From: Streptomyces sp. CB02923
GTDB lineage: Bacteria; Actinomycetota; Actinomycetes; Streptomycetales; Streptomycetaceae
Direction: 5' to 3'
DNA: 64,000 nt
Assembly (NCBI RefSeq): GCF_001905005.1
Contig: NZ_LWKZ01000027.1
Span: 1 to 64,000, forward strand
The first letter of the stretch is position 1. Every line of letters begins with the position of its first letter. The notes beneath the pieces were generated by a model. It was not told the origin of the DNA, did not search any database, and saw only the letters and a list, made by a program, of their open reading frames with translations. Shown piece after piece: positions 8,790-11,972 of the stretch. A program made the translations under genes and the position numbers.

Positions 8790-8869
8790 GCGGACAGCAT
8801 CCGGTGTGCGTAGATGGGTCCGTTCCCGTGCCGGGGCCGGTGCGGGAACGGACCGAAGGGACGGGCACA

Positions 8870-9868
8870 GTGGGCAACGGTGACGGGCGGAGCATCGGGG
8901 CGGTCGCGGACCTGGTGACGCCGATGGCGGTACGGGTGGTGGCGACGCTGCGGGTGGCCGACCGTCTCGCGGACGGCGTACGGACCGCGCGGGAGCTGGC
9001 CGCGGCCACGGGGGCCGACGCCGGTGTGCTGGAGCGGGTGCTGCGGCACCTGGTGACGGTGGAGGTGTTCAGCCGTGACGCGGAGGGGCGCTACGGGCTG
9101 CTGCCGCGCGGCGAGGAACTGCGCGACGGCCATCCGTCCGGCGCGCGGCGGATGCTGGACGTGGAGAGCGCCATCGGCCGGGCCGACCTGGCGTTCGTGG
9201 AGCTCCCCCACTCCGTGCGGACGGGCGAGGCGGCCTTCCCGCGGCAGTTCGGGCGTTCCTTCTGGGAGGACCTGAAGGCTGACCCGGAGCGGACCGCCGA
9301 CTACGACGCGCAGATGGGTGTCGACGTCGCACGGTGGGCCGAGGCCGTGGTCCCCGCCTTCGACTGGGGCTCGCTGGGGCGGATCGTGGACGTCGGCGGG
9401 GGCAACGGCACGTTCCTCGCGGCGCTGCTCGCCGCGCATCCCGGGCTGCGGGGCACCGTGTTCGACCAGCCGGAGACGGTACGGGCGGCTCGTGCCACGT
9501 TGGCGGCGGCCGGGGCGGCAAACCGCGCGGACGTGGTGGCGGGCGACTTCTTCGAGGCGCTGCCCGCCGGGGCGGACGGCTATGTCCTCTCCGCGGTCCT
9601 GCACGACTGGGACGACGACGCGGCGCGGGCGATCCTGCGGCGGTGCGCCGAGGCGGCGGGCGCGCGGGGCCGGGTGCTGGTGGTGGAGCGGGTCGGCGCG
9701 GACGGCGAGTCGGTGCACACGGGCATGGACCTGCGGGTGCTCGTGTACTTCGGGGCGCGCGAGCGCGGAGTGCCGGAGCTGACGGCGCTGGCGGGCGAGG
9801 CCGGGCTGCGGGTGGCCGGGGTGCACCGGGCGGGCGACCTGGCGGTGGTGGAGATGGTGGCCGCCTGA
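8870..9868 (+). CDS. SAM-dependent O-methyltransferase (hydroxyneurosporene/plant OMT type)
   Basis: About 332 residues from the GTG at 8870, which has GAAGGGACGG upstream; an in-frame ATG at 8804 would add 22 residues with no family resemblance. The N-terminal winged-helix dimerisation domain (ADRLADGVRTARELAAATG) is followed by the Rossmann methyltransferase with the SAM motif VDVGGGNGTF and the catalytic-region motif LHDWDDD. Relatives methylate hydroxyls on secondary metabolites (carotenoids, anthracyclines, flavonoids). No biosynthetic cluster surrounds it, so the substrate is unknown. Confidence 0.88.
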   Translation: MGNGDGRSIGAVADLVTPMAVRVVATLRVADRLADGVRTARELAAATGADAGVLERVLRHLVTVEVFSRDAEGRYGLLPRGEELRDGHPSGARRMLDVESAIGRADLAFVELPHSVRTGEAAFPRQFGRSFWEDLKADPERTADYDAQMGVDVARWAEAVVPAFDWGSLGRIVDVGGGNGTFLAALLAAHPGLRGTVFDQPETVRAARATLAAAGAANRADVVAGDFFEALPAGADGYVLSAVLHDWDDDAARAILRRCAEAAGARGRVLVVERVGADGESVHTGMDLRVLVYFGARERGVPELTALAGEAGLRVAGVHRAGDLAVVEMVAA

Positions 9869-10049
9869 GAGCCGGAGTCACCGGCGTTCCTGGCGTGAAC
9901 CGCCCGCGCGGGCTGATCACTTCGGAGGCCCGGCGGCCCGGAAAACGGAAAACGGGTCGGTCTTCTATTTCTGTTCTATTGCCGCCCATTTTTACCGTGC
10001 GTTACTTTTGCCGGAGAATCCTTCCGTACAAAAACGGATGAGGGGCGAA
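9869..10049 (+). promoter_or_regulatory. AT-richer leader in front of the fulvocin C-like gene
   Basis: The 180 bases before the next gene are clearly less GC-rich than the surroundings (for example TTCTATTTCTGTTCTATTGC and CCCATTTTTACCGTGCGTTA). A small hairpin TCCGT-ACAAAA-ACGGA sits about 20 bases before the start, and the ribosome binding site GAGGGG lies 6 bases before the ATG. A promoter is very likely here, but I cannot fix its boxes. Confidence 0.5.
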
Positions 10050-11033
10050 ATGAGCGATCCGGCGACACGGTGGGTGTTGGCATTCGACGCCTCGTGCGAA
10101 CAGTGCAGGAAAGTCTCCGAAGCGGTCGAGCACGCCTGCGGGGGAAAAGTCGAACTGTTGTCGCTCTTCCATCGGGATGTTCACCGGTGGCGCGCCGAGA
10201 GCCTCGGCGACCGGGCCCCCTGGGCACCGACGCTCCTGCGCGTGGACACGGACCGGGTACGGGCCTGGGTGGGCCCGGCCATGGCGATGGCTCTCGTCCG
10301 GAGGCTGGGGCCGCGGGCGACGCTCCGTACGGTCGCCGCCCTCAACGACCTGCGCCGGCCGCCCCGGGCGGAGCACGGCCCGGGGCGCAAGCAGTTCCTC
10401 CGGCTCGCCGGTGGAGCCGCGGTCACCGCGGGGCTGCTCATCGGGGCGGGCAGGGCGACGGCCAGCGCCGCCCCCGGGGCCGGCGGTGACGAGGCCGAAC
10501 GGTGGGTCGAGGCCCACCGCGACGCCCTCCCGCAGGACTACGACGCGATGACCGCCCACCCCATGCACTACCGCCAGGCCATCTGGGCGGCGCTGCCGCC
10601 CGCCGTCCGCAGCCGGCTCTGGGTGGAACAGCTCACGCGCTACCGCCGGGCACACCCCCGCCTCTCCCCCGGGCAGACCGGCGTACTCGACGCGGTGCAC
10701 CGCATCGCCGCACAGGAAGCCGGTTTCGCTTTCGACCGGGTCGACGACCCGGGCCCGGACGAGCGGGCCCTCCGCGAATCCGCCGCACGGCATTTCGGGC
10801 GCGAGGAGGCGAATCTGCTGTTCGCGACGCTCGGCCCCGCCGAGCCGTCCGGGCGCCGCGGCGCAAAGGCCCTGAACTGCAATTGCAGCGTCGAATCCAA
10901 CTACTGTTCCACCAGCGCCTGCCACGACAACCAGTGCATGAAAGGCCGCTGCAGCTGCCGCGTCTACCAGCGGTCCTGCGGTTACCTCTGGCGCTATCCC
11001 TGCGACGGATTCTGCGCCTGCAGCTCCTGCTGA
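10050..11033 (+). CDS. Fulvocin C-related Cys-rich protein with redox-like head and Tat/TM-like segment
   Basis: 327 residues from the ATG at 10050, chosen for its GAGGGG site. Residues 1-100 look like a thioredoxin-fold or DCC-type head with C16-x2-C19 (FDASCEQCRK) and a WAPTLLRV strand. Residues 112-142 carry RKQFLRLAGG followed by a hydrophobic run and an ASAAPG end, like a Tat signal with Arg-Lys in place of Arg-Arg, or a membrane anchor. Residues 145-270 form an Arg/Ala-rich helical domain. Residues 276-327 hold 12 cysteines (277, 279, 286, 291, 296, 301, 303, 310, 318, 322, 324, 327) that resemble the 8-cysteine bacteriocin fulvocin C of Myxococcus fulvus in NCxC, the YC spacing and the terminal CAC. 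Function is unproven: a maturing bacteriocin precursor or a surface disulfide protein. No export or immunity gene is adjacent. Confidence 0.72.
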   Translation: MSDPATRWVLAFDASCEQCRKVSEAVEHACGGKVELLSLFHRDVHRWRAESLGDRAPWAPTLLRVDTDRVRAWVGPAMAMALVRRLGPRATLRTVAALNDLRRPPRAEHGPGRKQFLRLAGGAAVTAGLLIGAGRATASAAPGAGGDEAERWVEAHRDALPQDYDAMTAHPMHYRQAIWAALPPAVRSRLWVEQLTRYRRAHPRLSPGQTGVLDAVHRIAAQEAGFAFDRVDDPGPDERALRESAARHFGREEANLLFATLGPAEPSGRRGAKALNCNCSVESNYCSTSACHDNQCMKGRCSCRVYQRSCGYLWRYPCDGFCACSSC

Positions 11034-11102: not shown

Positions 11103-11972
11103 ATGCCGAGACTCGCTGCCGCGCTGCGCGGCCTCGCCGTGACCGCCACTGCCGTCGCCCTGACCGCTGCCGCCGTACCGCAAGGAGAGGCCGCCGCACC
11201 GCGCGCTTCCGGCGGTACCGCTGCCGTGGCCGGTACGGCGGCGAAGGCGCCTGAGGAGTTCGTCGCCCTGCGCGACGTGGACCCGACGATCCGCCAGGAG
11301 ATGCGGTACTTCACGCCGCACAATTTCATGGGCGTACCCGTCACCGGCTACCGGCAGCCCCTGTGCATCCTGACCCGGGACGCGGCGCGGGCCCTCCACC
11401 GGGCCCAGCGCTCCTTCCTGCGCCGCGGCTACACGCTCAAGGTCTACGACTGCTACCGGCCACAGCGCGCCGTGGACCACTTCGTGGACTGGGCCGAGGA
11501 CCTGGGCGACCAGCGGATGAAGGGCGAGTTCTATCCACGGATCGACAAGTCGACCCTCTTCCGCGACGGCTACATCGCCGAGAAGTCGGGGCACAGCCGG
11601 GGCAGTACCGTCGATCTGACGCTGGTGCGGCTGCCGGGCCCGCCCACCCGGCCGTACATCCCCGGGGAACCGCTGGCGAAGTGCTACGCGCCGAAGGCGC
11701 AGCGCTTCCCCGACAACTCGCTCGACATGGGGACCGGGTTCGACTGCTTCGACACCCTCGCGCACACCCTCAATCCGCGGGTGCAGGGGCGGCAGCGGGC
11801 GAACCGGCTGCTGCTGAAGCAGGGGCTGGAGCGCGCCGGGTTCCGCAACTACGACAAGGAGTGGTGGCACTACACCTTCACGCCGGAGACCTTCCCCGAC
11901 ACGTACTTCGACTTCCCGGTTTCGCGGCGGTCGCTGAACACGGGGCACGGGGCACTCGACCCGGGGCACTGA
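11103..11972 (+). CDS. Secreted D-Ala-D-Ala dipeptidase, VanX/M15D type
   Basis: 289 residues. A signal peptide is visible (hydrophobic residues 9-25, likely cleavage near AAA-PRA). The zinc and catalytic residues of the VanX family are present: H164 and D171 in SGHSRGSTVD, E253 and H256 in EWWHY, and the conserved Arg in YRP (R119). It should hydrolyse D-Ala-D-Ala or related cell-wall dipeptides outside the membrane. Vancomycin-resistance VanX is cytoplasmic and sits with vanH and vanA, neither of which is here, so a role in peptidoglycan-peptide salvage is more likely. The C terminus runs into a 28-base tandem repeat. Confidence 0.88.
   Translation: MPRLAAALRGLAVTATAVALTAAAVPQGEAAAPRASGGTAAVAGTAAKAPEEFVALRDVDPTIRQEMRYFTPHNFMGVPVTGYRQPLCILTRDAARALHRAQRSFLRRGYTLKVYDCYRPQRAVDHFVDWAEDLGDQRMKGEFYPRIDKSTLFRDGYIAEKSGHSRGSTVDLTLVRLPGPPTRPYIPGEPLAKCYAPKAQRFPDNSLDMGTGFDCFDTLAHTLNPRVQGRQRANRLLLKQGLERAGFRNYDKEWWHYTFTPETFPDTYFDFPVSRRSLNTGHGALDPGH

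Follow-up and report, generated by a model that had tools for sequence, protein, structure and literature searches.

A predicted thioredoxin-fold head and putative export segment joined to a fulvocin C-related tail in Streptomyces and to unrelated, mostly cysteine-rich C-termini elsewhere

The window considered here, that is, the whole stretch of DNA analyzed, consists of 64,000 nucleotides of Streptomyces sp. CB02923. At positions 10050 to 11033 of its forward strand lies an ATG-initiated gene for a 327-residue protein, an actinobacterial member of the fulvocin C-related family which bears, in addition, an amino-terminal ‘head’. A likely ribosome-binding site, GAGGGG (10040–10045, forward strand), can be read from the sequence just upstream. 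The gene is flanked by those for an O-methyltransferase (8804–9868) and an M15 D-Ala-D-Ala dipeptidase (11103–11972), with the latter adjoining it downstream on the same strand.

The protein can be viewed as consisting of four parts, all encoded on the forward strand. The head, residues 7–102 (10068–10355), is predicted to contain strands at residues 7–12, 35–38, 61–65, and 70–74 along with helices at residues 17–30, 42–52, 75–86, and 88–102. Within it are found a CxxC motif, C16-E-Q-C19 (10095–10106), and P60-T-L (10227–10235), a motif like that of the thioredoxin cis-proline, both being invariant in alignments A2 and A3. A putative export segment follows, residues 113–142 (10386–10475), opening at R113 with R-K-Q-F-L-R, continuing as a hydrophobic stretch, and then A-T-A-S-A-A, with an A-x-A-like cleavage site as judged by eye. 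Next is a pro-domain, residues 144–275 (10479–10874), which in the model is helical. Last is the tail, residues 276–327 (10875–11030), with an 8-cysteine, fulvocin-type core plus four extra cysteines, such that 12 cysteines fall within the 51 residues spanned by C277 and C327. The open reading frame, CxxC, hydrophobic segment, and 12-cysteine, 51-residue tail are thus all as the preliminary description had them.

This layout is not a product of chance, as it recurs in full in a paralogue from the same genome (C9:50279-50704; 8 tail cysteines), and as an in-frame head is carried by 24 of the 27 actinomycete genes, including that of the window. Those 27 genes (28 loci) were found using a model of the back half alone, i.e., one which ignores the head. 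Of the three genes without an in-frame head, L011 has its head disrupted, L028 amounts to no more than a short stretch lacking a head, and L017 runs into the end of its contig, with a head present elsewhere in that genome on a second small contig. In L013 the head is present with the tail in another frame. L011, L016 (the same gene as L013), L017, and L028 were left out of the first list of members.

That the tail should resemble fulvocin C, as initially proposed, has been borne out. The NCBIfam model NF033852, ‘bacteriocin fulvocin C-related protein’, matches residues 175–322 with 103.2 bits, versus a cut-off of 35, spanning positions 1–149 of the model's 150. A search of plasmids yielded 14 RefSeq records with a match, 7 of which carry this same product name, Streptomyces homologues included. 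Judging by sequence, that is, the window gene belongs to an established family whose name RefSeq already uses. Cut out alone, the window tail matches model positions 108–149 (26.9 bits, E 7e-6), which is under the whole-protein cut-off of 35. What we take to be the sequence of the fulvocin C peptide falls on the same stretch, positions 108–148, with 29.5 bits, this too being below 35 for so short a piece. Aligned with that presumed sequence, the window tail agrees at about 40% over 43 columns with gaps.

Fulvocin C reportedly was described from Myxococcus fulvus by Tsai and Hirsch in 1981, as cited in PMC8708641. The tail of one family member from the Myxococcota (L086) is 75% identical to the presumed fulvocin C sequence, and STASDYCPILTFCTTGTACSY survives within a decayed copy from Myxococcus sp. 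CA023, in agreement with the presumed letters. The decayed gene lies at L045:4753-5025 on the reverse strand, in a genome with no NF033852 match at E ≤ 0.01. The window tail has in common with fulvocin C a CxC-x6-C start and a cysteine-rich pattern, but differs in possessing 12 rather than 8 cysteines. It likewise shares with NF033852 the pro-domain and cysteine tail, whereas the model omits both head and export segment.

Over 22 aligned actinomycete tails, including that of the window (alignment A1), the core reads CxC-x6-C-...-C-...-C-x6-CG-x7-C-x3-C with modest changes in spacing, its last part usually being C[ND]GxC. The family's arrangement of a helical pro-domain followed by a C-terminal cysteine tail, with CxC and the usual GCG...C[ND]GxC, is thus present, with the window protein having SCG for GCG. 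Cysteine counts are even in 20 of these 22 tails, and range from 4 to 14 among members with an in-frame tail. The predicted structure of the window tail, based on 6 sequences, has a pLDDT below 50, too low to be relied upon.

The head had been described as ‘redox-like’, which can be refined to a predicted thioredoxin-fold CxxC domain, going by sequence and predicted structure, for which absolute scores are weak. Over the 19 sequences of alignment A3, A-F-D-x-x-C-x-x-C, P-T-L, and W-x-G are invariant. Searched against Pfam, the window protein has no match at cut-off, nor does it reach the gathering score of 27.8 of the DCC1-like family (PF04134), for which the best value among headed proteins scanned is 19.4 bits. 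Relatives match DCC1-like weakly in 3 of 21 cases and thioredoxin weakly in 2 of 21. Comparison by hhalign of the head with the DCC1-like alignment gives a probability of 90.8. When a profile of the head is searched using hmmsearch against PDB sequences, thioredoxins make up 13 of 16 weak matches (E 0.03 to 1.4), with CxxC and P-T-L aligned in register with those of thioredoxin. The best such match (E 0.014), however, is not a thioredoxin but a metalloprotease fragment, covering only the later part of the head.

AlphaFold2 predicts the head with a pLDDT of 87 and pTM of 0.79, its strands and helices being ordered as in thioredoxins. In this model the CxxC opens helix 1, and a cis-proline loop is present. 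The 50 matches listed by Foldseek are, by title, nearly all thioredoxin, protein disulfide isomerase (PDI), glutaredoxin, or TlpA folds, the best among those listed having an E of 2e-3, with none at E ≤ 0.001, and query-normalized TM scores being 0.3–0.46. VIA comparisons reach a Z of 6.1 with the whole protein, and stay under 5 when just the head is used. We read the head as a probable, divergent thioredoxin-fold domain, weak though these absolute scores are. It shares with thioredoxins and with the DCC1-like thiol-disulfide oxidoreductases a D-x-x-C-x-x-C, the P-T-L, and the order of strands and helices, but differs from these in falling below Pfam cut-off, in being linked to a membrane segment, and in being fused to a presumably secreted cargo, with ‘cargo’ referring here to whatever C-terminus follows the export segment.

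The same head and export segment are found before other cargos as well, most of all in Rubrobacteraceae. A tblastn search of plasmids turned up a Rubrobacter radiotolerans ‘hypothetical protein’ with this head and segment and with a different cysteine-rich C-terminus. Matches to the head profile occur in at least 16 of 394 genomes of the class and at least 14 of 296 of the phylum, these being lower bounds as at most 12 or 16 candidates were scored per genome. The headed genes of family f58 would appear to be those of Rubrobacteraceae, with L180 reading as the R. radiotolerans protein. After dropping L151, L159, L161, L164, L165, and L168 (which are partial, cut by contigs, or in a wrong frame), and after merging duplicates, 45 different headed proteins remain. 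CxxC is found in all 45, a result which is partly circular as the motif was used in picking frames.

The segment following the head had been described as Tat-like, and this holds only in part. An R-x-x-[FILM]-[LIFM] motif is found ahead of the hydrophobic stretch in 42 of 45 headed proteins, a count which excludes the misplaced motif matches of L026 and L027. At the second position G is commonest (12 proteins), followed by R (10), A (9), K (8), and S (3). The twin arginine, that is, is seen in only 10 of 45. The Tat consensus is S/T-R-R-x-F-L-K, which R-K-Q-F-L of the window protein does not fit. Of 10 proteins scanned, only L169 scores above the cut-off of the Tat model TIGR01409, and that model does not report the window protein. 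The segment nonetheless looks like a Tat motif in which the second arginine has been relaxed, and it may make use of the Tat pathway. With its arginines on the N-terminal side of the hydrophobic stretch, the head should stay in the cytoplasm with the cargo ending up outside.

The 45 heads form a single BLAST component at E < 1e-3. Their cargos, by contrast, fall into groups of 24 (the fulvocin type), 10, 4, and 2, plus five singles. Of 20 non-fulvocin cargos, the truncated L171 being left out, 17 have at least six cysteines within their last 90 residues, versus one of 495 neighboring open reading frames, with rows in this comparison not being independent. The three which are not cysteine-rich are L178, L181, and L182. 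In L178, a 602-residue protein, the head and export segment precede an M23 peptidase domain, which is one of the five single cargos. In L181 and L182, from two genomes, the cargo is hydrophobic and basic and has two cysteines. Approximately 2 kb away from these two headed proteins are genes which also occur in the circular-bacteriocin stretch of genome G790, as described below. NCBIfam assigned no cargo family to 10 headed proteins or to the R. radiotolerans protein, and Pfam found over cut-off in 10 headed proteins only the M23 peptidase of L178. Matches of halocin C8-like type, which had been expected, were found in neither scan. As judged from these alignments, a CxxC head of apparent thioredoxin fold, an R-x-x-F-L segment, and a hydrophobic stretch make up one homologous unit, standing before unrelated and mostly cysteine-rich C-termini.

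In G790, of the Rubrobacter family, four headed genes are found within about 20 kb. Two of these, L179 and L183, possess heads which are 94% identical and cargos without detectable relation. On a maximum-likelihood tree of heads, the non-fulvocin cargo types interleave, and that with 10 rows requires at least six changes on well-supported branches, while fulvocin-type heads make up one group, with one change and modest support (65/92). Based on these change counts, cargos appear to have been exchanged within Rubrobacteraceae, whereas the tree is consistent, with support being modest, with the fulvocin cargo having been joined to the head about once in Actinomycetes and then inherited. Gene conversion of heads could give rise to the same pattern as cargo exchange.

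The four headed genes of G790 flank, on both sides, a circularin/uberolysin-type bacteriocin gene (38.1 bits, cut-off 30.7). The island, seen as L187 and L188, is G790:C1:2225000-2256000, with the circular bacteriocin at L188:1166-1513 on the reverse strand. Also within that stretch are ABC genes and a gene for a SpoIIM-family protein (47.8 bits with Pfam, versus a cut-off of 26.9). The ABC genes beside Rubrobacteraceae heads were considered as exporters of headed cargos, a role which was set aside as the same stretch holds the circular bacteriocin and SpoIIM-family gene, and it is the circular bacteriocin which the G790 ABC genes thus probably serve.

A profile (A7) of a second cargo type, searched against 39 genomes of G790's class, matched in 7 of these, with 11 rows representing nine genes. 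Beyond five already known to be headed, L230 is headed and L229 is cut by a contig start, while L231 (G804:C49:332514-332723) and L234 (G790:C1:2228864-2229304) are open frames without a head. About 0.75 kb upstream of L234 is a headed gene whose cargo is of the same type, and in this L234 is similar to the orphan cassettes of polymorphic toxin systems.

The family as a whole is patchily distributed. Within the genus, 12 of 199 genomes have an NF033852 match, as do 13 of 394 from the class (a sample overlapping that of the genus) and 14 of 195 Myxococcota genomes, the latter at 17 places. Of 296 genomes sampled from the phylum, none but that of the window passes the cut-off. Among viral contigs there were four pattern matches, with no relative among them. 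The Myxococcota are the source group of fulvocin C, and none of their 17 places carries a head. Instead, all 17 start in a signal-peptide-like manner, as judged by eye, with one resembling a lipoprotein signal, such that the myxobacterial members found differ in this regard from the headed window protein. A headless frame, of 155 residues, is found also in S. clavuligerus (L143). Homologues without a head, which the preliminary description had named among the findings that would refute its idea, do then exist in Myxococcota. With 0 of 17 places headed there, fulvocin function does not in general include the head.

What, then, might the head be doing? The reading which we favor, and to which we would give about an even chance, is that the headed module is a carrier of swappable, secreted, disulfide-rich, and probably antibacterial peptides, and that the head works in cis upon the thiols of its cargo. 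The gene product would be the precursor of a secreted, disulfide-rich, fulvocin C-related peptide, borne on an N-terminal module common to other cargos, with an export segment that is a signal of Tat type or descent, the head being in the cytoplasm and the cargo going out. The head would handle cargo thiols in cis before or during export, whether as oxidase, isomerase, or thiol-protecting chaperone. Signal peptidase would then cut after A-x-A, a second protease near residue 275 would free the peptide, and the freed tail would form six disulfides and act upon competing bacteria. The redox step, Tat dependence, and killing by headed members are what we infer. If export is of Tat type then the cargo may fold prior to export within the head's own compartment, and a thiol enzyme or guard acting in cis makes sense. 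Were export instead via Sec, then the head could not reach the tail once exported, and its role may be limited to docking the precursor or to holding thiols in the reduced state.

That a head should mature its own cargo was a guess in the preliminary description, and is a guess still. It gains weight from the same head being found on other, unrelated cysteine-rich cargos. It loses some weight from L025–L027, which keep the head's CxxC along with the pro-domain but have only four tail cysteines, thus arguing against a role purely in tail maturation. Two of the three, L026 and L027, have a lost or decayed export segment as well, and this subclade perhaps represents cytosolic relatives with another role.

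These same proteins may be pointed to, along with the headless myxobacterial members, in support of the head serving solely as a delivery or retention leader, i.e., one which docks the precursor at the membrane or which holds the peptide inactive for the safety of its producer. The CxxC in that case would be metal-binding or structural, with disulfides forming outside via the usual enzymes, presumably as in Myxococcota. Heads before cargos of few cysteines (L178, L181, and L182) fit with such a leader, as do the residues between the two CxxC cysteines, which vary freely over the 45 headed proteins. Yet both cysteines and P-T-L, the active-site pattern of thioredoxins, are invariant across the 19 rows of A3, and P-T/S-L/F is found in 44 of 45 headed proteins even while cargos turn over. 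So too the module is strongly biased toward cysteine-rich cargos (17 of 20). A leader and nothing else is, with this evidence, rather doubtful.

A different question is whether the tail is antibacterial at all, versus a disulfide-rich structural, metal-binding, or signaling peptide to which the family name wrongly carries over the function of fulvocin C. Neighboring genes and tail variability can be read that way. Over 25 actinomycete fulvocin loci (the window plus L103–L126, with crude calling of open reading frames), a search for conserved partner genes found, apart from the gene itself, none of the clusters listed in more than five loci. The commonest neighbors, both named by eye, are LysR-like regulators (5 of 25) and ABC ATPases (4 of 25), and these were set aside as partners. 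Clusters listed as having at least four loci do not take in the neighbors of the window gene, and no immunity, transport, or protease gene recurs in more than five. Tail cysteines, as noted, number anywhere from 4 to 14. Patchy distribution (12 of 199 genomes within the genus), variable tails, and cargo swapping are, however, typical of competition peptides. In G790 the circular bacteriocin has headed genes to either side of it, and an M23 peptidase is found among the headed cargos. On balance we consider a non-antibacterial tail unlikely. As for the window protein being an ordinary family member, its head a lineage-specific decoration which resembles that of Rubrobacteraceae through incidental sharing of a thioredoxin domain, the single group formed by fulvocin-type heads (one change, 65/92) fits with this, but what is shared is both head and R-x-x-F-L segment, in the same order (42 of 45), and the heads form one component at E < 1e-3 versus E of 0.03 or worse to PDB thioredoxins, rendering the idea quite improbable.

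A constant N-terminal delivery module with swappable C-termini is characteristic of polymorphic toxin systems, and to that extent the carrier proposed here is alike. It differs in that its cargos are small and mostly disulfide-rich, in its thioredoxin-fold head, and in having no immunity genes identified. A thioredoxin fold tied to bacteriocin genes also is known from the pneumococcal tdpA, a thioredoxin-like protein of a bacteriocin cluster (PMC4517551), and from the bacteriocin transport accessory protein 1zma, which is among the Foldseek matches of the head. There it is a separate protein, while here the thioredoxin fold is part of the precursor. No title or abstract opening within the literature looked at, on bacteriocins with thioredoxin, Rubrobacter, twin-arginine, or DUF393, described such a module, and it is the cargo-swapping, thioredoxin-headed module which, as far as those titles and openings go, appears to be new.

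Stated most fully, and only tentatively, at somewhat less than even confidence, the headed proteins may represent a polymorphic peptide system of Actinomycetota, one in which a single polypeptide brings together a foldase of thioredoxin fold, a Tat-type signal, and a C-terminus which is swappable, disulfide-rich, and antibacterial. Its head would oxidize or guard cysteines in the cytoplasm prior to export of the folded peptide, and the weapon would be changed by recombining cargos behind the same head. If that is so, then this would be a case of a built-in folding enzyme fused to its own cargo. The head, in addition, would provide a sequence handle by which disulfide-rich peptides unlike known bacteriocins may be found in streptomycetes and their relatives, and could serve as a portable tag for the production of disulfide-rich peptides.
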